From assembly GCA_023131975.1 (NCBI GenBank), contig JAGLYV010000045.1:1-64000 (forward strand): a stretch of DNA of 64,000 nt. The letters run 5' to 3'. The notes under the pieces are model-generated. The model saw nothing but the letters and a program-made list of their open reading frames with translations. It was not told the origin of the DNA and did not search any database. The DNA is from Candidatus Krumholzibacteriia bacterium. Its GTDB lineage: Bacteria; Krumholzibacteriota; Krumholzibacteriia; Krumholzibacteriales; Krumholzibacteriaceae. Within the stretch, counting starts at the first letter, position 1, and each line of letters opens with the position of its first letter. Positions 2,167 through 46,074 of the stretch are shown here, piece by piece. Made by a program: the position numbers and the translations under genes.

Positions 2167-3450
2167 TTGAAGCTCTTCAAAGCCTTTATGAACACGAAGC
2201 TTCATACCAAGATCCTTATCGGCCTGGTAGCCGGTATCCCGGTCGGTCTGCTCTTAGGCCCTCACGCTGAAAAGATCGAGCCCATCGGTAAACTGTTTAT
2301 CCGCCTCATAAGAATGATAGTAGTACCCCTGGTCTTCTCCTCTCTCTTTGTCGGAACGGCAAGCCTCGGCGATATCAGAAAACTGGGCAGAATAGGCCTG
2401 AAGACGATCGGGTATTACCTGTGTACTACGGCCATCGCCATAACAATAGGTTTGATCCTCGGCAATCTTATCGCGCCGGGAAAGTCGATCGACGAATCGA
2501 CCAGGGAACGCCTCATGTCATCGTACCAGGCAGAAGCGGCGGGCAAGATAGAGATCGCCATGGATAAACCGGGTGTAGTCGAGACCCTTACACGGATCAT
2601 CCCGCAAAACCCGATTGAAAGTCTCGCCGAAGCGAACATGCTCCAGATCATATTCTTCGCCCTGCTGTTCGGGATAGCGGTCACTCTCATCCCTGGAAAT
2701 AAGGGAAAACCTGTGATCGAGTTCTTCGATGCCGTCAGCGAGGGAATGATCCAGATGGTCCACCTGGTGATGAAACTCGCTCCTCTCGGAGTGCTGGCCC
2801 TTATCGCGGCGGTAGTCGGAAAGTTCGGGATGGATATCCTGCTCTCCCTTCTCGGTTATTCACTCGTCGTTATCTCGGGACTGGCCATCCATGGCATTTT
2901 CGTGTATTCGACCGCGGTGAAGTTATTCTCGGGGATGGGACCAATCGATTTCTTCAGAGCTATACGCCCAGCCCAATTGATCGCTTTCTCTACCTCATCG
3001 AGCAACGCCACCCTGCCGGTGACGATGGAATGCGCCGAGAAAAACCTTGGGGTCTCCGACGAAGTATCGAGCTTCGTCCTCCCCCTTGGAGCAACTATAA
3101 ACATGGACGGCACGGCGCTCTACCAGGGAGTGGCGGCGGTCTTTATCGCACAGATCTACGGGATCCCGCTGACCTTCGGAGACCAGCTGACTATTGTACT
3201 GATGGCGACCCTGGCGTCGATAGGAGCAGCCGGAGTCCCTGGCATCGGCGTGATCACTCTTGCCATGGTACTCGACCAGATCGGCATCCCCCTCGAAGGG
3301 ATAGCGCTCATACTCGGGGTAGACAGGCTCATCGACATGTGCCGGTCGGCGGTGAACATCACCGGCGACGCATCGGCGGCGGTGATCATCGCGGCAGGTG
3401 AAGGCGAACTGGACAGGAAGACCGCAAAAAAGGAAAGCAGGGATCGATGA
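2167..3450 (+). CDS. Dicarboxylate/amino acid:cation symporter (DAACS family)
   Basis: This multi-membrane-span transporter has the family hallmarks: the serine-rich reentrant loop STSSSNATLPVT, the NMDGTALYQG sodium-site motif and the final substrate-binding segment DMCRSAVNITGD. Members (GltP, DctA, GltPh) import glutamate, aspartate or C4-dicarboxylates with Na+ or H+. I chose the TTG at 2167 because AAGAGG lies about 6 nt upstream and it gives 427 residues, the usual family length. An upstream TTG at 2086 would add 27 residues not typical of the family, and an ATG at 2188 is also possible. The stop overlaps the start of the next gene (ATGA), so the two are one transcription unit. Substrate cannot be assigned from sequence alone. 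Confidence 0.88.
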   Translation: MKLFKAFMNTKLHTKILIGLVAGIPVGLLLGPHAEKIEPIGKLFIRLIRMIVVPLVFSSLFVGTASLGDIRKLGRIGLKTIGYYLCTTAIAITIGLILGNLIAPGKSIDESTRERLMSSYQAEAAGKIEIAMDKPGVVETLTRIIPQNPIESLAEANMLQIIFFALLFGIAVTLIPGNKGKPVIEFFDAVSEGMIQMVHLVMKLAPLGVLALIAAVVGKFGMDILLSLLGYSLVVISGLAIHGIFVYSTAVKLFSGMGPIDFFRAIRPAQLIAFSTSSSNATLPVTMECAEKNLGVSDEVSSFVLPLGATINMDGTALYQGVAAVFIAQIYGIPLTFGDQLTIVLMATLASIGAAGVPGIGVITLAMVLDQIGIPLEGIALILGVDRLIDMCRSAVNITGDASAAVIIAAGEGELDRKTAKKESRDR

Positions 3451-5678
3451 ACCGTTTTATCAGGATATTCTTCATCGTTATGATCGGCCTTATTCTCGCT
3501 TCGTCCGCCTTTTTTCCGTCGGCCCTGTGGGGAGTCAGCGCCTGGCACGACGCCTCGTTCACTCTGGGGTTCATCATAGCCGGCCTCTCTCTGCTTCTCC
3601 TGTTTCCCGGAATACGGGACAGGGGGCTGAGACTATTCACCACTGAAAGAAAATATCCCCTGTGGGCCCGGGTCATATTCTACCTTGCGGCATTCGGCTC
3701 GATATTCCTCCTGCGGCAGGGCCACCTGTTATGGGGAGAACTGAATGAGGCGGCGACTCTCATCGAAAGCGGCAGATGGGTGAGCCCCGGGGCTCCCCTG
3801 GCCACGGCCATCAACCAGGCCGTTTTCAGGCTGTTCAATCCCCTGTTCTTCTGGACTCCGGGTATGGTGACCGCGCTGGTCAGCATCCTGTCAGGGCTTC
3901 TATTTATCCCGTGCGCGAAGGCTGCCGCTCTCGCGGTTGCTGGAGGTCATAGTGGCAACGATGCCACAAGCATCGGAGATGGCGATACCGGTGGGACCGG
4001 AATCGGCGAAAAAGATGATCCGGCCCGGCTGACGCCCGAACGGACGATAACCCTGTCCACGCTATATTTGATCGCGAATGGTTTTGTCGTACTCTTTTTT
4101 GGAGGAAGCGGCCTGATCCCGCCAGCCATCGTTTTTTCTACTCTTTTCATTGTAACTTCGATCAGGTTTATAGAAGGCCGATCGAGACTGTTTATCCCTG
4201 TTTTCCTGTTCATACTGGCGGTAGCCTCTCATCTCTCGGCCGTCTATCTTGTGGCCGGACTCGCGACATTGATGATAATCGCCTTTCGAAGAACCTCGAC
4301 TCGCAATGAGGCCCTTGTCTCTACAGCTATACTGGTCCTCGCGGCAACCGCCATCGAGATCATTATGCGGAACGTTCCAGGCGGTGTCTCCCCGATACGG
4401 TTCATCTGGTTCTCCTGTTCAAGCGCGGTGACATCGATATCAGCCGTATCTGCCGGAAGGACCATCGCGAACTGGGGTAACGCACTGCTCATCATCGGTC
4501 CCGCAAGCATAGCGTCGCTGGCCATTTTTGTTCGAGGACCGAAGAAACCTGAGGAAAAAGATAAAACAGGGACTGTCGAAAGATTTCTTTCCGTTCTCGT
4601 CATATCCGCACTGACTATCGCCCTCATCCTTTCTCACAGGATCGAGAACGGCCTCGGATGGGATATGATCGCCGTCATGGGACCGGCACTTGCCATTCTG
4701 GCTCTTTTCAGTATCCGCCGTCGTTCGGTCACATTGAAAAGCTTCGTCTCATCGATCCTGCTACTTGCAGTCCTGGGATCGATTCATTCGGCGGCGCTCG
4801 TAATTATATCCAGTTCCCAGGACAGGGGTGTAGCCCGCCTCTCTTCCCTGCCCCTGGCTCCCGGACTGGCCTCAAAAATCGCCGGGATCAGGGCATACGA
4901 AAGAGAAGACTACGAAGCAGCCGCGGCCTCGCTCGAAATATCGGTGGAAGAAGCCGCGGATGACGCGGCCACATGGTTCTACCTTGGGAAGGCTGACATG
5001 AAAAACGAAGATTACATCGACGCGATCTCGTATTTCATCAGGTCTCTCAGGATCGAACCGGAGAACAGGGCCTACAGGGAAAACCTGGCCGAAGCATATA
5101 TGGAAAACAGATGGTTCGGCGATGCCGTGAACGAATTCAGTACACTCGCCTCTTCCGATCCTGCCAACATCCATTACTGGAAACGGCTGGGCTTCGCCGC
5201 GAACAGGGCGGGAGAATACGAAATAGCGATAGATGCCTATAGCAGGGTACTTTCGCTCGAACCCCAAAAGGAACAGAACATCAGGAGCCTCGCGTCGGCA
5301 ATCCTGAATCAGGGAGCTGAATTCCACCAGGACAAGATGTTCGAAGAGGCAAAGCGGAACTATTACAGGGTTCTCAGCATGCTACCGCGCAACTGGGCCG
5401 CGAAAAACAACCTTGCGAATGTCTTTATGGACGAGGGAGATTTCGATGAAGCGTGGAACATCCTCGATGGGGCTCTGCGCGACAACGACATGGCCCCGAA
5501 ACTGCACTTCAATATGGGAATCGTCCAGGAAGCCCGGGGGAACTATGAAGACGCCTACAGGCACCTTACCAGAAGTGTGGAACTGAATCCAAACGCGCCA
5601 GCGCCCCAGGATATACTGGACAGAGTGTGGGAAAAATTACAGGCAGAGAAAGAATCGCCCGCCGACAGTCGACGCTGA
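3447..5678 (+). CDS. Multi-pass membrane protein with C-terminal TPR domain
   Basis: The first roughly 480 residues contain about ten hydrophobic segments with short loops, and the last 250 are soluble TPR-like helices (YLGKADMKNEDYIDAISYF, LGFAANRAGEYEIAIDAYS and NLANVFMDEGDFDEAWNIL at roughly 34-residue spacing). The layout resembles GT39/PMT-like membrane glycosyltransferases with TPR tails, including a soluble loop after the first helices (GELNEAATLIESGRW), but I see no clear catalytic Asp pair, so a transferase function is only a guess. It starts at the ATGA overlap with the symporter gene. A second protein of similar architecture is encoded at 15759-17645. An Asp/Gly-rich loop near residue 175 (GNDATSIGDGDTGGTG) looks like a flexible linker. 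Confidence 0.7.
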   Translation: MNRFIRIFFIVMIGLILASSAFFPSALWGVSAWHDASFTLGFIIAGLSLLLLFPGIRDRGLRLFTTERKYPLWARVIFYLAAFGSIFLLRQGHLLWGELNEAATLIESGRWVSPGAPLATAINQAVFRLFNPLFFWTPGMVTALVSILSGLLFIPCAKAAALAVAGGHSGNDATSIGDGDTGGTGIGEKDDPARLTPERTITLSTLYLIANGFVVLFFGGSGLIPPAIVFSTLFIVTSIRFIEGRSRLFIPVFLFILAVASHLSAVYLVAGLATLMIIAFRRTSTRNEALVSTAILVLAATAIEIIMRNVPGGVSPIRFIWFSCSSAVTSISAVSAGRTIANWGNALLIIGPASIASLAIFVRGPKKPEEKDKTGTVERFLSVLVISALTIALILSHRIENGLGWDMIAVMGPALAILALFSIRRRSVTLKSFVSSILLLAVLGSIHSAALVIISSSQDRGVARLSSLPLAPGLASKIAGIRAYEREDYEAAAASLEISVEEAADDAATWFYLGKADMKNEDYIDAISYFIRSLRIEPENRAYRENLAEAYMENRWFGDAVNEFSTLASSDPANIHYWKRLGFAANRAGEYEIAIDAYSRVLSLEPQKEQNIRSLASAILNQGAEFHQDKMFEEAKRNYYRVLSMLPRNWAAKNNLANVFMDEGDFDEAWNILDGALRDNDMAPKLHFNMGIVQEARGNYEDAYRHLTRSVELNPNAPAPQDILDRVWEKLQAEKESPADSRR

Positions 5679-33980: not shown

Positions 33981-34310
33981 CTACGCTCACCTTGCGAATG
34001 AGCTGCTGCCAGGATGGATATGAGCAATCGGTATTCCACAAACAGGGCGGGACCATTTCCAATAAGTCTGAACGGAGAAGAGCCTTTAAAGTGGAAACAT
34101 AGTATGGTAACATCGTCACCTGACAGGTCCGCATGAGGAATGATCGAGAACAAGCTGGAGCGGTCGGCAGCGAACGTTTCAACTCGTTTTTTTTCGACGC
34201 GGAAGACTGAGATACTGTCACGGAATCTGTTGAACAGTCTATTTTTATTGCTTATTGCGATTTTACTGCCCCACGACCCGAATGAGGGCAGTTTACCTGA
34301 AGGGAGTAAG
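33981..34310. other. Divergent intergenic region, no gene seen
   Basis: About 330 bases between the start of the secreted repeat protein (minus) and the ATG of the beta-CASP nuclease (plus). A reading frame that extends the nuclease upstream to 34140 lacks the family signature. The AGGGAG before 34311 marks the likelier start. No repeat or strong hairpin noticed. Confidence 0.4.
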
Positions 34311-35708
34311 ATGAGCGTCAAAACCACATTTATCGGAGCTGTAAGGGAAGTAACGGGTTCGAATCACCTGATCTCGACGGAATCATCGAAAGTGATCATC
34401 GACTGTGGGCTCTTCCAGGGCCGCAGAAAAGATTTCTATGCCAGGAACTCGACATTCCCGTACGACCCGGCGACCCTTGACGCGTGCATCCTCTCCCACG
34501 CCCATATAGACCATAGCGGAAATATTCCTAACCTGGTCAAACAGGGATTCAATTCAAGGATCGTGACCACAGACGCTACGAGGGATCTCTGCACGATGAT
34601 GCTTCCAGACAGCGGTCATATCCAGGAAGAAAGTGTCAAGTACGTCAACAAGATCCACAAAAGGAAGGGACTCCCTGCTGCTAAGCCCATTTATACCCGG
34701 CAGGATGCTGAAGACTCTCTTCAGTTTTTCTCCGGACACCCGTACAGGCAGAAAGTCAGGGTGACTGACGATATCTCCGTGACATTCTTTGACGCCGGAC
34801 ATGTCCTCGGCTCCACGAACCCTCTTATCGAGATCGAGAAAGATGGCCGAACGATCCGGGTCGCCTACGCGGTCGACCTTGGAAGAAAGGATATGCCGAT
34901 CCTGAACGATCCGGAGACTCCACCCGACATAGATTACCTGTTCCTGGAAAGCACCTACGGGGGAAGACTCCATGATTCGGTCGATACGACCAAGAACCGT
35001 CTGGCCGAGGTGATAACTTCTACAGTTAACAGGGGCGGGAAAATCATCATCCCGTCATTCGCGCTCGAACGGACCCAGGAGATAGCTTACTATCTCAACC
35101 AGCTCCTGCAGGAAGACCGCATCCCCGGCATCCCGATCTACGTGGACAGCCCCCTGGCAGTGAACGTGACGGAAGTCTTCATCAGGCACCCGGAATGCTA
35201 CGATGAGGAGATGTACGACGCGTTCCGATCCGGACAGGATCCCCTGGGAACGAACAGGATCGAGTATATAAGGGATGTCGAAAGGTCGAAGAGCCTCAAT
35301 CATGAGGACAGACCGATGATTATCATATCGGCCTCAGGAATGTGCGAAGCGGGCCGTATCGTTCATCATCTGAAAAACAATATCGGCGATCCGAAGAACA
35401 CCGTGATGGTAATCGGTTATATGGCAAAGAATACACTGGGCAGAAGGATCGTGGAGAAACATGAAAAGGTAAAGATCTTCGGAGAAGAACGGGCATTGAG
35501 AGCAAGAGTGGAAGTGATGAATTCATTTTCCGCACATGCCGATCGGGACGATCTCCTGAACTACGTCCTGCCTCTGAAAGGCTCAGTAAAAAAGATCTTC
35601 ATAGTCCACGGCGAAGAAGACCAGTCAAAGCAACTATTCGATCTTCTTGAGAGCAAGGGCCTGCCGGTCTTTCTCCCGGAAGCCGGGGACGAGATCGAGC
35701 TAGTTTGA
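34311..35708 (+). CDS. MBL-fold beta-CASP RNA-processing nuclease (YSH1/CPSF73-like)
   Basis: From the ATG at 34311 (AGGGAG upstream) the product is 465 residues. It has the metallo-beta-lactamase motifs: IDCGLFQG, SHAHIDHSG (HxHxDH zinc site), DAGHVLGS and VDLGRK. The beta-CASP motifs follow: IIPSFALERTQEI, YVDSPLA, IIISASGMCEAGRIVHHL and the late NSFSAHADRDDLL His motif. Such bacterial proteins resemble the 3'-end processing nuclease CPSF73 and act as RNA endo/exonucleases, differing from RNase J in lacking its C-terminal extension. A stem-loop follows the stop codon. Confidence 0.9.
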   Translation: MSVKTTFIGAVREVTGSNHLISTESSKVIIDCGLFQGRRKDFYARNSTFPYDPATLDACILSHAHIDHSGNIPNLVKQGFNSRIVTTDATRDLCTMMLPDSGHIQEESVKYVNKIHKRKGLPAAKPIYTRQDAEDSLQFFSGHPYRQKVRVTDDISVTFFDAGHVLGSTNPLIEIEKDGRTIRVAYAVDLGRKDMPILNDPETPPDIDYLFLESTYGGRLHDSVDTTKNRLAEVITSTVNRGGKIIIPSFALERTQEIAYYLNQLLQEDRIPGIPIYVDSPLAVNVTEVFIRHPECYDEEMYDAFRSGQDPLGTNRIEYIRDVERSKSLNHEDRPMIIISASGMCEAGRIVHHLKNNIGDPKNTVMVIGYMAKNTLGRRIVEKHEKVKIFGEERALRARVEVMNSFSAHADRDDLLNYVLPLKGSVKKIFIVHGEEDQSKQLFDLLESKGLPVFLPEAGDEIELV

Positions 35709-35751: not shown

Positions 35752-35993
35752 CATCCTCAAGCCCTCTTGTTCAAATATCCTTCCTGATCCATCTACCGTC
35801 AGATAAATATCTGATTGGTGGAACTCTTCTTGCAATTTTCCAGCTACGACAAAAGTCACACATCGATTAGTCGAGTTAAATACATGCAAGGCATCATGTC
35901 ATGCCTGTGGTGCCCGGAAAGTCCGGGCCACGTTGAATAGTATTCTCTCATATTGCAACACGGCGTGCCCGTGTGCAGCATAGAGGCAACACG

Positions 35994-37592
35994 ATGTTCA
36001 TCATCCCTGTCGGCACCAAGAGTGCGCTGGCCCTTAAGCCGAAGGTCACGATCTCCCTCATCGTCATCTGTATAGTCGTCCATATGTTGACGAGCATGAC
36101 CGGCGGCGATATCCAATCCGACCTCTTTAAAGTCGAACGGAAGATCTACCATGTACAGGTCCACCTCTTCCTTCTGGAAAACGATGAGTTCTATCTCGAG
36201 AACGGATATATAGATAATCTTCAGGAAATGGCGATGGACGGCATCGCCGGTTCGAGCGACTACGCCGACCTGGAATCCAACATATTCACGGCGATGGGAA
36301 ATTCCTTTTCCTGTTTCAAGGATCTCGAAAGTTTCGGAAATACCCTTTACAAACGCGACGCATCTTTCTACGAAGGCGAACCTTTCAGACAGGAACTGCT
36401 GGCAAAATGGAAAGATATTCAGAAAAAAGAGGAAAGCGTCCTTAACAGGATCCCTTCATTTTCACTGGGACTGGTTCCCAGAAATATGAACAGGTTCTGG
36501 ACCTTCGTCACTCATCTTTTCCTCCATGGTGACATATGGCACCTACTCGGCAACATGCTCTTTCTCTGGGTAGTAGGATGCCTCCTCGAAGACACCTGGG
36601 GCCGCGGCCCGTTTCTCGCCTTTTATCTCTGTGGAGGGATATTCGCCGGCCTGGCTCACTGCCTGCAGGACACTTCCTCGGGGATGCCTCTCATAGGCGC
36701 TTCAGGAGCGATTGCCGCCGCGATGGGCGCTTTTACAGTCCGTCATTTCATGACAAAGATCAGATTCTTCTATTTTTTCCTGCTTCTGTTCCGACCGTTC
36801 TGGGGAACCTTTCACCTCCCCGCGTTTGTCTTTCTTCCCTTCTGGTTCATTCAACAGGTAGCTCTCAAGTCGCTATCCGATTCAGTCGGCGGTTCGAACG
36901 TTGCCTACCTCGCTCATATTATGGGATACCTTGCGGGCATAGTCACGGCACTCATTTTCCGGACAACGGGGTTGGAAGAGAAGGTCATAGACCCGCTGGT
37001 CAAAAAGAAGCGGATCAAGGAGGGAGTACTGAAAGACCCGAGATTCGACGAGGCCTGCGACAGCCTCCGACAGGGGGGCGTGGAACGGGCAAAGATACTC
37101 TTTTCCCAGCTTGTCCGTGAAAATCCCGAGAACTTCGACCTGGCCGGGGACATAGCCATGATCTACAGGGAAGCCGGTATCGAAAATGACTATCTCTCCA
37201 TAAATGAACTCACGATGAAGAACCTGCTGCTCAAAGGCAGAATGGATGAAGCATCCGGACTGGCTCTGGATATGATCCATGTTCAGGCTGATACGGCAAT
37301 AAACCCGCAACTGCTGCACAAGGTAGGAAAACACCTGCAGAACGCTGGCAGGCACGGTGAAGCTCATGACATATACAGGTCGATCATAAAAGCCAACATT
37401 TCTCCCACCATGAGCGCCAAGGCCTCGATCGCCCTGGCGAAACTGCTGAGCTCCGAATTGAACAACGTCTATGATGCCATAGAAACACTCGACTACGCGC
37501 TGACCCTGGAGATCGAACCAGCGCTCAAATCAACGATCCTGGAGATAAAGAGTACGATGGAGAGCCTTGCGGGAAGCCCCTGCAAGACATAA
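35994..37592 (+). CDS. Rhomboid-family intramembrane serine protease with TPR-like C-terminus
   Basis: I choose the ATG at 35994 (AGAGG upstream). A first hydrophobic helix at about residues 15-33 is followed by an unusual soluble insertion of about 125 residues, rich in acidic amino acids, before the rhomboid core. The core has HGDIWHLLGNMLFLWVVG, GASGAIAA with catalytic Ser237, and AYLAHIMGYLAG with catalytic His308. The last about 180 residues are helical, TPR-like repeats (FDEACDSLRQGGVERAKILF; LHKVGKHLQNAGRHGEAHDI). Rhomboids cleave membrane-protein helices. The inserted loop and tail may bring substrates. Substrate unknown. Confidence 0.85.
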   Translation: MFIIPVGTKSALALKPKVTISLIVICIVVHMLTSMTGGDIQSDLFKVERKIYHVQVHLFLLENDEFYLENGYIDNLQEMAMDGIAGSSDYADLESNIFTAMGNSFSCFKDLESFGNTLYKRDASFYEGEPFRQELLAKWKDIQKKEESVLNRIPSFSLGLVPRNMNRFWTFVTHLFLHGDIWHLLGNMLFLWVVGCLLEDTWGRGPFLAFYLCGGIFAGLAHCLQDTSSGMPLIGASGAIAAAMGAFTVRHFMTKIRFFYFFLLLFRPFWGTFHLPAFVFLPFWFIQQVALKSLSDSVGGSNVAYLAHIMGYLAGIVTALIFRTTGLEEKVIDPLVKKKRIKEGVLKDPRFDEACDSLRQGGVERAKILFSQLVRENPENFDLAGDIAMIYREAGIENDYLSINELTMKNLLLKGRMDEASGLALDMIHVQADTAINPQLLHKVGKHLQNAGRHGEAHDIYRSIIKANISPTMSAKASIALAKLLSSELNNVYDAIETLDYALTLEIEPALKSTILEIKSTMESLAGSPCKT

Positions 37593-37664: not shown

Positions 37665-38882
37665 TCACAGTGATCCGACGATATTCATCAGAACCTGTTT
37701 GAAATCTTTCGAACCACCGACAAGACGCGCTCTCAACCGGCCTTCCCTGTCGATAACGATAGTTGTCGGAGTATACATCGTCGTAAGGACATTCCTCGAA
37801 TAGAACCTGGAATCTATCAGCAGAGGGATCGTGACTTTCTTTTCCTTGAGAATCTCCCTGCTGCGTTTCACCATACCTTTGGAATCGATGAGCAGGAGTT
37901 TGAAACCTTTTTCACTTTCGGACCTCTTCAACTCTTCCAGTTGCGGCAACTCCGCAATACAGGGCGGTCAGGTAGGGCTCCATGCGCTTATTATGAGTAT
38001 ATTTTCCCTGTATTCCGACAGTCTGTGGGTCCTCCCGTTCAGATCAGAAAAATCCATATCGGGAAGTACACCCTCGTCGATTATCCTCACAGCCAGGATC
38101 CGGTCATCGAGATCCTTCCTGTCCGGGTAGACAATGCTGTACAGGCTGTCGATATTTACATGCTCGCCCGCTCCCGGCGCTCCGGCAACGAACAGCAGGT
38201 ATGACTCGACTGCCTTCTCCCGCATATCCTTTTCCCAGAGATAGCTGGCCAGTTTATCATTGGCGAAAGGATAATCTCCCGCTTCGGCAAGGACGGCCGC
38301 GCCTTCATCATCTCTATTCCGGTCAAAGAGAAATTCGCCGTAAACCGATCTCGCGTGCTTCAATTTGTAATCGTTGCTGGTCAGTCCCTGCAATTTCTCG
38401 AATAGACTCTCTGTCAGCTGATCGCTGGATTCCTCGCTCATCAGGTAATAACAGAGGTACAGATGCAGACGGTAATCGCTCTCTTCCCCGCCCAGTATCT
38501 GTCCGGCAAGTTTAATCGCGGATTCCCTGTCCTTTTCCCACAGAAAGGCAAATTTCCTGTAAAGAAGGTCACCTCGGATGAAGGGTTCTTTCTCCTTTTC
38601 CATTACCTGGTCGAACCACGTCAGCGCGCTGTCTGAGTCGTTCATATCTACGACCATAGTCTCGAATATCCTTGAATAGGCTATCGACCTTGCGGGGTGT
38701 TCCTGATTGTTGACAGCGAATATCTTCAACCTCTCTACCCTTCTGGACGGAGCTTCGAGAGCAGAAGCAGTCTCAAGTTCCTCAAAGATGTAAAGATCCT
38801 GATTCCCGTCTCTGCCGGAACATCCGGATAAAGCGGCAGACAATAGAAAAATTGCGACTACCATCGGGACAAGCTGTCTCAT
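37665..38882 (-). CDS. Predicted selenoprotein: helical-repeat lipoprotein with UxxC thioredoxin/TlpA-like domain
   Basis: One reading frame of 406 codons is interrupted only by TGA at 37970-37968. Reading it as selenocysteine gives a 405-residue protein. Residues 1-21 are a lipoprotein signal (LSGC, Cys21). About 30-265 is an all-helical, TPR-like region (LTWFDQVMEKEKEPFIRG; YRKFAFLWEKDRESAIKL). About 275-405 is a TlpA/AhpC-type thioredoxin fold: DFSDLNGRTHRLSEYRENIL, IISAWSPT-U305-PPCIAELPQLEEL, YTPTTIVIDREGRL with the cis-Pro loop. The TGA sits exactly at the first Cys of the CPPC active site, and the second Cys (308) is kept. A hairpin follows (see SECIS entry). The start is set by the ATGA overlap with the upstream glycosyltransferase gene and by AGAGGAG. 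It is predicted to be a periplasmic thiol/selenol oxidoreductase. The alternative, a nonsense mutation or sequencing error, would have to fall by chance on this codon. Confidence 0.82.
37941..37957 (-). promoter_or_regulatory. Candidate bacterial SECIS hairpin
   Basis: On the minus strand, 10 nt after the in-frame TGA, UUGCGG-AGUUG-CCGCAA forms a perfect 6-bp stem with a 5-nt loop. The apical loop begins 16 nt after the UGA and has G at its second position. Both features fit the general bacterial SECIS description, in which SelB recognises a short hairpin just 3' of the UGA. The hairpin lies inside the coding sequence, as expected in bacteria. Confidence 0.65.
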
Positions 38883-40033
38883 CGACACTCCTCTTTTTGG
38901 CTTTTTGAAATACGGCTTTTCCTGATAAGGGCGATCATAGCATCGGCACGCGACTGCCAGCTGCATGCCATCGCGAATTCACGCAATTTCGCGGAATCCG
39001 CGCCCTCTTTCAGCGCTTTCCTTATGCCCTCGACAAATTCCTCCCGGCTTTCCGCCAGATATATCATCCCATCCAGTTCATCCATCTCGGGAGCGAATTT
39101 GTATGTGACGATCGGTTTTTCAACAGCGGCGTATTCATATATCTTGTTAGGATCCGCCATACGCATGAGTTCGTTCATCTGCAACGGGATCATACAGATA
39201 TCAAGCGCGTTGATATAGGCACCCAGGCGTTCATATGGTTTCGACCCCAGGTAGAAGATATTTCCCTTTTCGGCTATCATCTTCTCGAGCCTTTCACGCG
39301 ATGGTTCGAAAAGCGGGCCCATCAATATTATCGACGCCTCAGGGAAACCATCCGCGATCATATCGAGAAGTTCCATATCAAACCATGGAGCTATAGCTCC
39401 CGAGTAACCGAGAACAGGCTTATTGAATTTTTTCATCTCTTCAGGGATGCCTTTCTCGATCGCTTCCCTGAAAAGTCCGTAGTCGACACCATTACCTATA
39501 TAGTCCACATCCTTCACTCCCATGGAATGAAGACGTTCTACCAGCCCTCTGCTTACCGCTACCAGAACATCGGATATGGATACCAGCTTCCTGAAATATT
39601 TCCCTGCCCAGCGGGGCGATCCTGGAAATTCAAGAGGATCGTCATTGCAATCGTAGAGGATGAAAGAGCGGTTGAACAGGGGGAGCACCGCCGCGTAGTA
39701 AATGTTAGAGACGAAAAAGACTCTGTCTCTTCCGGAAAACCCCGTAATGGAAAGAATGACCCGGACCCAGAAAAAGAGGATTATGTTCCAGAGGAACCTG
39801 GCGGGAGGAAACGAAAAGAGAGCCTTCAGACATTTTTGGGGAAAATTCTTCAAAGCAGGGACACAGACATAAGTGATATTACCATCCCTGACAGGCCTGA
39901 AATTGTTTTTCTTGCCCTTGACGACGCTGGACAGGAAAAGGATCTCCCAGTCTGACGGAAAACGGCCGATGATCTGCTGCTTTCTCGTCCTCACGTACTG
40001 CCACTGGATCTCAGAAAAACAAACTACTTTCAA
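38879..40033 (-). CDS. Glycosyltransferase family 4-like protein
   Basis: The 384-residue protein has the GT-B C-terminal half: KPVLGYSGAIAPWFDMELL, ASIILMGPL, NIFYLGSKPYERLGAYINALDICMIPLQ, and the E-x7-E-like PNKIYEYAAVEKPIVTY. The N-terminus (EILFLSSVVKGKKN and a hydrophobic ARFLWNIILFFWVRVILSI) suggests membrane association, as in sugar transfer to lipid-linked acceptors. The start is TTG with AAAGG upstream. Third gene of the operon, 20 nt after the DegT-type gene; its stop overlaps the start of the selenoprotein gene. The sugar is unknown. Confidence 0.85.
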   Translation of the reverse strand: MKVVCFSEIQWQYVRTRKQQIIGRFPSDWEILFLSSVVKGKKNNFRPVRDGNITYVCVPALKNFPQKCLKALFSFPPARFLWNIILFFWVRVILSITGFSGRDRVFFVSNIYYAAVLPLFNRSFILYDCNDDPLEFPGSPRWAGKYFRKLVSISDVLVAVSRGLVERLHSMGVKDVDYIGNGVDYGLFREAIEKGIPEEMKKFNKPVLGYSGAIAPWFDMELLDMIADGFPEASIILMGPLFEPSRERLEKMIAEKGNIFYLGSKPYERLGAYINALDICMIPLQMNELMRMADPNKIYEYAAVEKPIVTYKFAPEMDELDGMIYLAESREEFVEGIRKALKEGADSAKLREFAMACSWQSRADAMIALIRKSRISKSQKEECR

Positions 40034-40053: not shown

Positions 40054-41187
40054 TTAAGTACCGGCCAGAGGTTCTACTTCTCTGCCCGCATAGAATTCCC
40101 TTATTTTCTCTATAACGAAATCCTGCTGCTCCCCGGACAACTCGGTGTAAACAGGCAGAGCCAGAGTCTGTTCAGAGGCTTTTTCCGCTTCAGGCAGGTC
40201 TCCTTTCGCCCCTCCCAGAAAAGAAAAACACTTCTGCAGATGAAGCGGTACCGGATAGTAGATCTCGCAGCCGATACTTTCCGAAACAAGGAACGATTTG
40301 AGCGAATCTCTATCTCTTGCCCGGATCACATATTGATTGAAGATGCTTATATTACCTTCGGCTGTCACAGGAGTGGAGACTCCCGGCAGACCGGCCAGCC
40401 CTTCGGAATAATAAGCGGCGTTCCGACGCCTTCCCTCACTCCACTCATCAAGATATTTCAGCTTTACTTCGAGGACCGCGGCCTGTATCGCGTCCAGCCG
40501 GCTGTTGACCCCGACCTCGTCATGGTAGTACCGCTCCCGCGCTCCATGTCCACGCAGCAGACGTAGCCGCGAATCGATATCCTCATTCCCGGTCACTACC
40601 ATCCCGCCGTCCCCGAACCCACCGAGATTCTTGGATGGAAAAAATGAAAAACAACCGCAGAGTCCGAAAGCGCCGGCTTTCTTCCCATTGTACGATGCTC
40701 CGATCGACTGACAAGCATCCTCTATGATCGGAATATCGCGCGAATCGGCCATCGCGCAGATACTCTCCATCTCCGCCAACTGACCGAACAGATGCACGAC
40801 AAGGACAGCCTTCGTCCTGGGCGTGAACGCCTCCTCGATCCTGTCCGGTGAGATGTTATATGTGACAGGATCTATATCGACCATGACCGGGGTAGCACCC
40901 AGTCTCGTTATCGAACTGACTGTCGAAAAGAAAGTATAGGGGGTCGTGATCACTTCGTCTCCGGGACCGATATCAAGCGCCATCAGGGCCAGGAGAATAG
41001 CATCTGATCCTGAAGCTACGCCAGAGGCATATTCTACACCGCAATAAGCTGCCACGGATCGTTCAAACTCGGCTACTTTCGGTCCCATGATGAAATACTG
41101 GGATTCCATGACTTCACGGACTGCGCCTTCTATCTCACTTCTGATCTTATCATACTGTGCAACCAGGTCGAGCAGCTTCACTTCCAT
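40054..41187 (-). CDS. DegT/DnrJ/EryC1/StrS-family PLP sugar aminotransferase
   Basis: The 377-residue protein shows the family pattern: YCGVEYASGVASGSDAILLALMA, PGDEVITTPYTFFSTVSSI, IPIIEDACQSIGASYNGKKAG, and the PLP-lysine segment CFSFFPSKNLGGFGDGG. RLDAIQAAVLEVKLKYLDEW is the usual substrate-side motif. Members transfer an amino group to nucleotide-linked keto-sugars to make amino sugars for surface glycans. It lies 9 nt after the first glycosyltransferase gene and ahead of another, so the operon likely builds an amino-sugar-containing glycan. The sugar identity cannot be told. Confidence 0.92.
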   Translation of the reverse strand: MEVKLLDLVAQYDKIRSEIEGAVREVMESQYFIMGPKVAEFERSVAAYCGVEYASGVASGSDAILLALMALDIGPGDEVITTPYTFFSTVSSITRLGATPVMVDIDPVTYNISPDRIEEAFTPRTKAVLVVHLFGQLAEMESICAMADSRDIPIIEDACQSIGASYNGKKAGAFGLCGCFSFFPSKNLGGFGDGGMVVTGNEDIDSRLRLLRGHGARERYYHDEVGVNSRLDAIQAAVLEVKLKYLDEWSEGRRRNAAYYSEGLAGLPGVSTPVTAEGNISIFNQYVIRARDRDSLKSFLVSESIGCEIYYPVPLHLQKCFSFLGGAKGDLPEAEKASEQTLALPVYTELSGEQQDFVIEKIREFYAGREVEPLAGT

Positions 41188-41196
41188 CGATATCCC

Positions 41197-42399
41197 TCAC
41201 TTCTTCCTTTCGGCCAGCCCACGATAAAGCTCCTTGAGCTCATCGCTGGTGCTGTCCCAGTTATATCGGTCGAGGAAGGCCTCGCACCCTCGCTCTCCTG
41301 TCTCTTTCCTGAATTCCTCATCCTCATAAAGTCTCCTCACACTCTCGGCGAATTCCTCGGGACGGTCCCATGTAAAGACCAACCCTCCACCGGAGTCCTC
41401 GATCACCCTCTTCAGAGGGGGACAGTCACTCACGATCACCGGTTTTTTCAGCATCATGTATTGAAATATCTTGTGCGGAATCGTGGTGTCTGTATGCGGA
41501 TTTCTCGCGTGCGGGACAAGGCATACGGAACTGGCATCGATATAGCTCCATATCTTATTGAAGGGCTGCCATCCGGGCATCTCGACCGTATCTCCGCACC
41601 CAAGGCTGGCGGAAAGTCTCTTGAGGTGATCCATGTACGGCTTGTTCCTGTCGCCAACGAGAACAACCCTGAGATCCTTTATCCTGTCTTTCATAAACGG
41701 AACGGCCCTGATGACCGTGTCCAGCCCCCTGTGAGGAGCAAAGCCCCCGATATAGGAGATCATGAAACTTCCTGAATACTTTTTCGTGATAGTAGGATCG
41801 AGGGGAATGTTGATCCTCTCCACATGAGCGGTGTTCGGGACCACATGTATCTTCTCCCCTGGAATTCCCAGGTCCTTGATCCTTTCCTTCGATTCTTCGA
41901 TCACCGCTATGATGGCATCGACTTCTCTCAGTATCTCTCTTTCGTATCGGGCCCAGCGCCTGAACCCGTATATGGTCTTCTTTTTTAACTGGTTCGTGTA
42001 CCAGACCTGCAGGCCTCCGGGATAATTCTCGTGCAGGTCGGCGACTACGGGGATCCCTTCCATTCGACCTACCCTGACCGCTATGCCCACCAGCGGAAGA
42101 TCGTGAATATGAAGCACCTCTATTTTTCGGCTTCTGACAAAATCTATTATAGCCTTTTCCCAGAGCCGATCCCTGTATGTGAAGTTGAAAGTGTACCTGT
42201 GATACTTCTCTCTCCACTTGCCCATCTCGATACCCCGGTACATGTGGATAGGGCCGTTCATGGCCTCCAGCGCCTCTCCCTCCCCACGCTCAAGGAGGAG
42301 ATGGACTTCGTGACCTTCCGCTGCCAGGGTCCCGGCTTCCTTTTCCACACGGATATCAGGAGGAGGTATCCTGCCCTTCAATACCATACCGATACGCAA
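41197..42399 (-). CDS. Glycosyltransferase family 4 protein
   Basis: The 400-residue GT-B enzyme has an N-terminal nucleotide-fold start (IGMVLKGRIPPPDIRVEKEAG), VLHIHDLPLVGIAVRVG, VVADLHENYPGG, and the C-terminal GSFMISYIGGFAPHRGLDTVI. LRVVLVGDR, VEMPGWQPFNKIWSYIDASSV and an H-K-I-F-Q-Y-M-M-L-K-K-P-V segment (nucleotide-sugar site) complete the pattern. It starts with TTG after AAAGGAAA and is the first gene of the four-gene minus-strand operon that ends with the selenoprotein. Confidence 0.88.
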   Translation of the reverse strand: MRIGMVLKGRIPPPDIRVEKEAGTLAAEGHEVHLLLERGEGEALEAMNGPIHMYRGIEMGKWREKYHRYTFNFTYRDRLWEKAIIDFVRSRKIEVLHIHDLPLVGIAVRVGRMEGIPVVADLHENYPGGLQVWYTNQLKKKTIYGFRRWARYEREILREVDAIIAVIEESKERIKDLGIPGEKIHVVPNTAHVERINIPLDPTITKKYSGSFMISYIGGFAPHRGLDTVIRAVPFMKDRIKDLRVVLVGDRNKPYMDHLKRLSASLGCGDTVEMPGWQPFNKIWSYIDASSVCLVPHARNPHTDTTIPHKIFQYMMLKKPVIVSDCPPLKRVIEDSGGGLVFTWDRPEEFAESVRRLYEDEEFRKETGERGCEAFLDRYNWDSTSDELKELYRGLAERKK

Positions 42400-45274: not shown

Positions 45275-45787
45275 TCAGCTCCCACATTCTCCGCCATTGC
45301 GCAGGTACTGATCGAGAGTGACGTTTTTCTTGTAACAGCCCCCTGTAACATATCTCAGGGTCGGCATGAATACATTCGTTTTTTTGAAACCGGGGACGAC
45401 CATGATAATCTTCCCATCGCTCTCCAGATATGCGAGAGAGGGAAATCCTCTTACCTTGAACGATCTCGTCAATTCCACGGAAGTATATTCTTTTCCCTTA
45501 AACCGGAGTTTATCTTTCCTGTTCTCAGCATTGATCCGGATTGTGATAAAATCCTTTTCCAGTACCGTCTTTACCTCGGGATTGGAAAAAGTGTCCCTGT
45601 CCATGACCTTGCACCATTTGCACCACGAAGTATAGAAATCGATTATTACGGGCTTTCCGGAACTGGCGGCCAGTTCCATACCCTCGTTAAAACCGAGCCA
45701 GCCATCAGCAGCCTTCTCTCCACTGCCACCACCACACCCAGCCAATACTATCATTACCAGTCCTATAAAAACAAGATTTCTCGACAT
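45275..45787 (-). CDS. Thioredoxin-fold lipoprotein with CKWC active site
   Basis: Starting at the ATG at 45787 (AGGGAGGG upstream), the product has 170 residues. It has a lipobox (LAGC, Cys18), then VIIDFYTSWCKWCKVMDRDT with the CxxC active site (CKWC), VKTVLEKDFITIRINAE, and a C-terminal RGFPSLAYLESDGKI carrying the cis-Pro loop. It resembles DsbD-gamma-like or thiol:disulfide interchange proteins (thioredoxin_7 type) in the periplasm. In contrast to the selenoprotein at 37665-38882 both active-site positions are Cys. Longer upstream starts would destroy the signal peptide. Confidence 0.82.
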   Translation of the reverse strand: MSRNLVFIGLVMIVLAGCGGGSGEKAADGWLGFNEGMELAASSGKPVIIDFYTSWCKWCKVMDRDTFSNPEVKTVLEKDFITIRINAENRKDKLRFKGKEYTSVELTRSFKVRGFPSLAYLESDGKIIMVVPGFKKTNVFMPTLRYVTGGCYKKNVTLDQYLRNGGECGS

Positions 45788-46074
45788 CTCCAAGCCCTCC
45801 CTCATGTTGTTTTGGCGAAAATTTAATATAACCCAGACATTGAATGACTTCAAGAAGAACTGGCCCCGTCTCTTCCAGATAATCATGGAATAGCTTTCCA
45901 GGGCCGAATTCGATGTTTCTTTCAGGAACTTTTCTCTCACTGATATTTATACAATAGCCACGATAGTATCCTTGAACAACAGGTGCGATGCCTGTATTAT
46001 TCATCGGTCGAAGATGATTGAATCTGAAACATATATACTACTACGACCCGCTCACCAGAAACGAAAGGAAACAG

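Follow-up and report, generated by a model that had tools for sequence, protein, structure and literature searches.

A putative exported selenoprotein that joins a helical solenoid to a UxxC thioredoxin-like domain in Krumholzibacteriota

The window analysed in this study, a stretch of 64,000 nucleotides from contig JAGLYV010000045.1 of a Krumholzibacteriia bacterium (assembly GCA_023131975.1), carries on its minus strand a run of glycan-synthesis genes that ends with a long reading frame interrupted by a TGA codon. The features of the locus and the evidence for each assignment are as follows:

37665..38882, minus strand: predicted complete selenoprotein coding sequence, 405 residues and a TGA terminator, with the internal TGA read through (translation; homologs co-linear across both halves)
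37968..37970, minus strand: predicted selenocysteine (Sec) codon TGA, residue 305, the N-terminal active-site position of U-P-P-C (TGA in 34/34 U-form homologs)
37941..37957, minus strand: SECIS-like hairpin UUGCGG-AGUUG-CCGCAA (synonymous freeze, covariation, 39/40 Cys relatives without the hairpin, fit to the bSECIS model)
38888..38893, minus strand: Shine-Dalgarno sequence GAGGAG, 5 nt upstream of the ATG at 38882 (sequence)
38820..38882, minus strand: lipoprotein signal peptide, lipobox LSG-C21 (sequence; Cys also in the other f1 and f2 rows that cover the site and in some of the distant ones)
38085..38798, minus strand: N-terminal all-helical solenoid, residues 29-266 (AlphaFold2 model, pLDDT mostly >90; no Pfam match)
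37671..38069, minus strand: thioredoxin-fold (ResA/TlpA-like) domain, residues 272-404 (Pfam AhpC-TSA/Redoxin; Foldseek to ResA 1st9)
37959..37961, minus strand: codon TGT of the resolving Cys308 of UxxC (invariant in alignments A1 and A5)
37950..37952, minus strand: codon of Glu311 in UxxCxxE (invariant in alignment A5)
37767..37769, minus strand: Pro372 of the cis-Pro loop, Y-T-P-T (invariant in alignment A5)
38879..40033, minus strand: gene of the upstream glycosyltransferase GT_a, whose last 4 nt (ATGA) are shared with the start of the selenoprotein gene (syntenic at most loci examined)
40054..41187, minus strand: DegT/DnrJ-family sugar aminotransferase (syntenic)
41197..42399, minus strand: GT4-family glycosyltransferase GT_b (syntenic)
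35973..37592, plus strand: rhomboid-protease gene in convergent orientation that bounds the run

The frame extends from 38882 to 37665 on the minus strand, the TGA at 37970-37968 (codon 305) is its sole interruption, and a second TGA at 37667-37665 terminates it. Since the window contains dozens of TGA codons that are flanked on each side by at least 60 open codons, the open frame around the TGA is by itself no evidence. The AhpC-TSA domain of Pfam (residues 273-385, E 1.3e-13) extends across the TGA codon, which aligns exactly with the residue that opens the active site in thioredoxin-fold relatives; in 3kcm, for instance, it is a Cys. Moreover, a comparison of the two species of the genus revealed purifying selection both upstream (NG86 dN/dS 0.090/0.630) and downstream of the TGA (0.022/0.315). 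These results and the homologs described below agree with the original prediction, which had proposed a single continuous frame interrupted only at this codon and had placed the TGA at the first active-site position of a T-U-P-P-C motif.

The AlphaFold2 model based on the family alignment has a mean pLDDT of 91.5 and a pTM of 0.86, and a signal region of low confidence precedes both predicted domains. The best match in the PDB as judged by Foldseek is ResA (1st9, E 2.6e-8, TMt 0.86), followed by TlpA and DsbE-like proteins. Among the hallmarks of the ResA/TlpA-like proteins, the thioredoxin fold is found in the predicted structure and the C/UxxC motif and the cis-Pro in the alignment. The spacing of Glu311 in UxxCxxE equals that of the active-site residue Glu80 of ResA. 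Even at about 20% identity, Pro303, U305, Cys308, Glu311, Pro313, Pro372, Asp378 and Gly389 are invariant (alignment A5). For the solenoid, Pfam and NCBIfam yield no family. The helical domain, the lipoprotein nature and the retained cis-Pro loop that had been claimed from the sequence are supported by the confident model, by the lipobox LSGC at residue 21 and by the invariance of Pro372, respectively. In the distant members L094, L102 and L103, a signal peptide is present but an obvious lipobox Cys is not; export therefore looks general, but lipidation does not.

The site could be read in 34 distinct homologs of the U-form, all with TGA at the same codon: 29 belong to five families of the Krumholzibacteriota and five lie outside the phylum. 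In the source family, each of the 17 loci that cover the site has the TGA in the context PT-U-x-x-C, and the TGA form recurs in f2 (the second family of the order, four genomes), f4 (three), f6 (two) and f8 (three). Outside the phylum, three genomes encode a long U-form including a helical-looking N-terminal region, and this region is absent from the short U-form of two others. The latter (L132 and L133) are redoxins with the motif FPT-U-GGC that lack the solenoid and have the TGA as well as a hairpin, GUGUGG-AGUUG-CCACAC, indicating that the Sec redoxin domain also exists alone. Cys occupies the Sec position in more distant TlpA paralogs within the phylum and in proteins with helical repeats and a TlpA domain outside of it; among the full-length orthologs of the phylum, no Cys version was found. 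G019 contributed an N-terminal fragment only, located at a contig end, and no ortholog was recovered from G001, G003 and G033. A scan of viral contigs detected no relative, and none of the plasmid matches covers 80% of the query, the ten listed being ordinary TlpA/redoxin proteins that cover 29-40%. The position thus holds TGA or Cys rather than the unrelated residues that the original prediction had named as counter-evidence. Another of its caveats was a TGC or TGT in place of the TGA; however, assemblies obtained independently from other species have the TGA as well, which excludes a sequencing error.

The homologs also revealed a feature beyond the observations of the original prediction, a covarying SECIS-like hairpin. 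It begins 10-11 nt after the UGA and consists of a 6-bp stem and a 5-nt loop with a G at loop position 2. All six pairs are present in 32 of the 34 U-forms and five in the remaining two, and the loop reads AGTT[G/T/A] or AGGTT in every case. Of the 40 Cys relatives, 39 have at most four of the six pairs and one has five. In 21 homologs, the codons 309-314 that underlie the hairpin show a mean pairwise codon identity of 0.94, and the value drops to 0.42 in 218 conserved columns elsewhere. Ala310 (GCG), Glu311 (GAG) and Pro313 (CCG) are frozen in 21/21 homologs each, and the nearby codons 303, 307, 315 and 318 vary freely. The covariation score of 0.461 was not reached by any of 500 shuffles (0.205, sd 0.034). 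Across the phylum, 99.2% of the cells are paired, variants of the stem such as GCGUGG/CCACGC and UCGUGG/CCACGA keep the pairing, and changes on both sides were seen at three stem pairs. In L067 (f2), Gln CAA is replaced by Arg CGA and ATT in the opposite arm by ATC, so that the base pair is preserved despite the change of the amino acid.

Thermodynamic folding alone gave no signal (z -0.1 to -0.6), and the case for the SECIS element is thus a comparative one: the 60-nt fold at the source TGA is no more stable than shuffled sequences (z about -0.1), and its minimum-energy structure differs from the hairpin, which is seen in the 40-nt fold and in the 50-nt centroid. The published bSECIS model (PMC13188914, Fig. 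2A) has an apical loop of 3-9 nt on an upper stem of 4-16 bp, a G within the first two loop positions that is usually followed by G or U, a distance of 16-37 nt from the UGA to the apical loop, and a minimum free energy of at most -7.5 kcal/mol. Our hairpin combines a 5-nt loop with 6 bp, the loop G is present in 34/34 U-forms (AGUUG, AGUUU, AGUUA or AGGUU), the distance from the UGA to the apical loop is 16 nt and thus at the lower limit, and folding of a 40-nt stretch with the hairpin yields -9.6, the 60-nt minimum-energy structure being without it. As the hairpin is short, has a nearly invariant shape inside and outside of the phylum and comes with natural compensatory changes, this set of sequences offers a clean natural test of recognition by bacterial SelB. 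In the source genome, a Cys paralog (WATWCAPCIAEMPH; L141/L044, G000:C125) has a hairpin with five of the six pairs, TTGCGG-AGATG-CCGCAT, at the SECIS position; the similar residues may have produced it by coincidence, or it may be left over from a replacement of Sec by Cys.

The draft genome (2.79 Mb, 96% complete) contains the complete machinery for selenocysteine insertion whose absence would have spoken against the original prediction: a tRNA-Sec (68 bits, anticodon TCA, long variable arm), SelA (516 bits), SelB (343 bits) and SelD (396 bits). SelA was found in 78 and SelB in 74 of 80 Krumholzibacteriota genomes, and with nearly every genome of the phylum having both, a correlation between the presence of our gene and that of the sel genes is uninformative. 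The source genome has a second gene with an internal TGA, encoding a peroxiredoxin with the motif PGDFTFV-U-ATEV (L139; G000:C144, about 3231-3626), and this TxxU arrangement is the layout of verified Sec-peroxiredoxins (PMC13188914). A single 737-aa frame (L016:1387-3600, G000:C2) has SelD as its C-terminal half and, judging by the sequence, what looks like a cysteine desulfurase of the NifS/IscS type as its N-terminal half. Such a fusion could feed Se0 straight into selenophosphate synthesis.

Selenoproteins with a UxxC motif in TlpA-, Prx- and redoxin-like proteins have already been catalogued (PMC1088965, PMC13188914). The combination that the original prediction had called unusual is therefore unusual in its architecture, a lipoprotein with a solenoid, but the UxxC theme is less so, and we consider the solenoid-fused lipoprotein subgroup, rather than UxxC TlpA/Prx-like selenoproteins as such, to be new. 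A close entry is the thiol-disulfide isomerase-like selenoprotein (cd02966), known from the Sargasso Sea (PMC1088965) and from the 2026 catalogue (PMC13188914): it shares the UxxC TlpA-like fold and the UGA with a downstream bSECIS, and our protein has its defining UxxC in a TlpA-like domain by motif and fold, the catalogued representative being compared by description. By that description, the entry is listed by the TlpA domain alone and mentions neither a helical-repeat lipoprotein domain nor Krumholzibacteriota. The Prx-like thiol:disulfide oxidoreductases (PF00578, UxxC/UxxU) and the Redoxin family proteins (PF08534, UxxC) of the same catalogue (PMC13188914) also have UxxC, and their Pfam families match residues 273-392 of our protein; the latter differs by its additional solenoid and lipoprotein signal and by having ResA/TlpA as the nearest structures. 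In NCBIfam, no model reaches its cut-off for the window protein, and the matches of other family members are to the same set of general ResA/TlpA models. The best selenoprotein model is NF041054, the ResA-like WAxxUGC motif-containing protein (37.9 bits, cut-off 300). Like our protein, it has a ResA-like domain and a catalytic motif that includes Sec, but our motif is PT-U-x-x-C, and the redox domain is C-terminal here whereas it occupies positions 76-193 of 354 in the model. The ResA subfamily model NF002854 yields 49.1 bits (cut-off 170). ResA/TlpA proteins of known structure (1st9, 3kcm, 1jfu) have the same fold (TMt up to 0.86-0.88) and the layout of UxxCxxE and cis-Pro, but they are Cys-based, lack a solenoid and are about 20-28% identical. 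Finally, proteins of other phyla (L130, L131, L134, L135, L136) combine a helical N-terminus with a TlpA domain, but have Cys at the Sec position and no hairpin. In the literature searched, no paper links Krumholzibacteriota with selenoproteins, and PMC8674449 alone mentions selenocysteine together with the phylum. In the Krumholzibacteriota genomes that carry the gene, automatic annotation would probably divide it in two or drop it, and an exported selenoenzyme of much of the phylum would thus remain invisible.

How else might the locus be read? A standard stop codon that interrupts a frame can be a nonsense mutation or a miscall. However, this TGA is shared by 29 Krumholzibacteriota genomes of five families and five genomes outside the phylum, and both the purifying selection downstream of it and the conserved hairpin are at odds with a pseudogene. 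The independent assemblies with TGA refute this reading, to which we give practically no credence. We think just as little of two separate proteins, a solenoid lipoprotein terminated by the TGA and a redoxin fragment with a start of its own, even though gene finders would make such a split call and a TTG is present at codon 312 in the source gene and many relatives: no in-frame ATG, GTG or TTG after the TGA is conserved (the best candidate occurs in 13 of 21 homologs), in line with the earlier claim that no start fits the downstream piece, the fragment would be without the initial strands of the fold and without the U/CxxC motif, and frame and TGA are retained in all homologs. A suppressor or reassigned tRNA that reads the UGA as Cys or Trp, giving a thioredoxin-like protein of the usual kind with CxxC or WxxC, might be suggested by the Cys of the relatives and is hardly more probable. 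TGA terminates 18 of the 30 long genes in the window, so that the genetic code is not globally reassigned, the genome has the full selABCD set, and the hairpin required for Sec is present here but in at most one of the 40 Cys relatives. Judged by the sequences, it is nearly certain that UGA 305 is decoded as selenocysteine, and the selenoprotein reading as a whole, i. e. a single full-length exported lipoprotein with Sec at this position, is very probable.

Two further alternatives accept the selenoprotein and concern its function. The protein might reduce peroxides in the manner of the Prx proteins rather than disulfides, as suggested by the Pfam match to AhpC-TSA/Redoxin and by the Prx-like UxxC selenoproteins of the catalogue (PMC13188914). 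We regard this as unlikely: ResA and TlpA are the best structural matches, and the protein has UxxCxxE and the cis-Pro, but not the PxxxTxxU layout of the genome's own Sec-peroxiredoxin, its motif being PT-U-PPC. A disulfide reductase rather than a peroxidase is thus the chemistry that we moderately favor. The UGA might also act as a switch between two functional products, a solenoid-only lipoprotein at low and the full enzyme at high selenium availability. The truncated product would consist of one complete predicted domain; however, this argument is equally valid for any C-terminal Sec site, and we consider the switch very doubtful.

For the disulfide reductase, we suggest the following mechanism. 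UGA 305 would be decoded by SelB and Sec-tRNA under the direction of the SECIS hairpin, and the exported protein may be tethered to the membrane by its lipid anchor. The probable task of the N-terminal solenoid is to bind a partner or substrate, and it would thereby select the partner for the redox domain. Outside the cytoplasm, Sec305 would act as the nucleophile that attacks a disulfide or another oxidised group of the substrate, and Cys308 would resolve the mixed selenenylsulfide. The genome encodes a single DsbD, with a signal, transmembrane segments and a WCIPC thioredoxin domain, and this membrane reductase may recharge the Sec305/Cys308 pair; we rate the chance that it is the electron donor as about even. 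A role as an extracytoplasmic selenol-disulfide reductase fed by DsbD appears likely.

The gene order at most loci of the family that were examined is phosphofructokinase, the divergent rlmD, GT_b, DegT, GT_a, the selenoprotein, and the convergent rhomboid and beta-CASP genes. In part of f2, the selenoprotein gene directly follows DegT, and over the short stretch read at the distant f4 locus none of these neighbours is present. The same-strand neighbours are glycan-synthesis genes, and neither a redox partner nor an obvious substrate is linked to the gene in an operon; the association with glycan synthesis may reflect either a real functional link within the order or an inherited gene order. 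The convergent rhomboid protease probably has no functional link to the selenoprotein. It is tempting to speculate about a widespread, uncatalogued Sec family, for which no Krumholzibacteriota ortholog with Cys was found, in which an exported, solenoid-bound selenol reductase is co-inherited with a glycan-synthesis operon, possibly acts on a partner in surface assembly, and gives way to a solenoid-only product of UGA termination at low selenium; taken as a whole, this scenario is improbable.

Two other proteins of the window deserve mention. A Thioredoxin_7/DsbD-C-terminal-like protein (45275-45940, minus strand), encoded at a distance of a few genes from the selenoprotein, has a weak likeness to the C-terminal part of the selenoprotein TsoB (58 of 805 bits) and is a possible redox partner. 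The beta-CASP metallo-ribonuclease (34140-35708, plus strand), which adjoins the locus in most relatives, scores 300 bits with aCPSF1 and 424 bits with the NCBIfam model for Cas14 of type VII CRISPR, which has a cut-off of 800.
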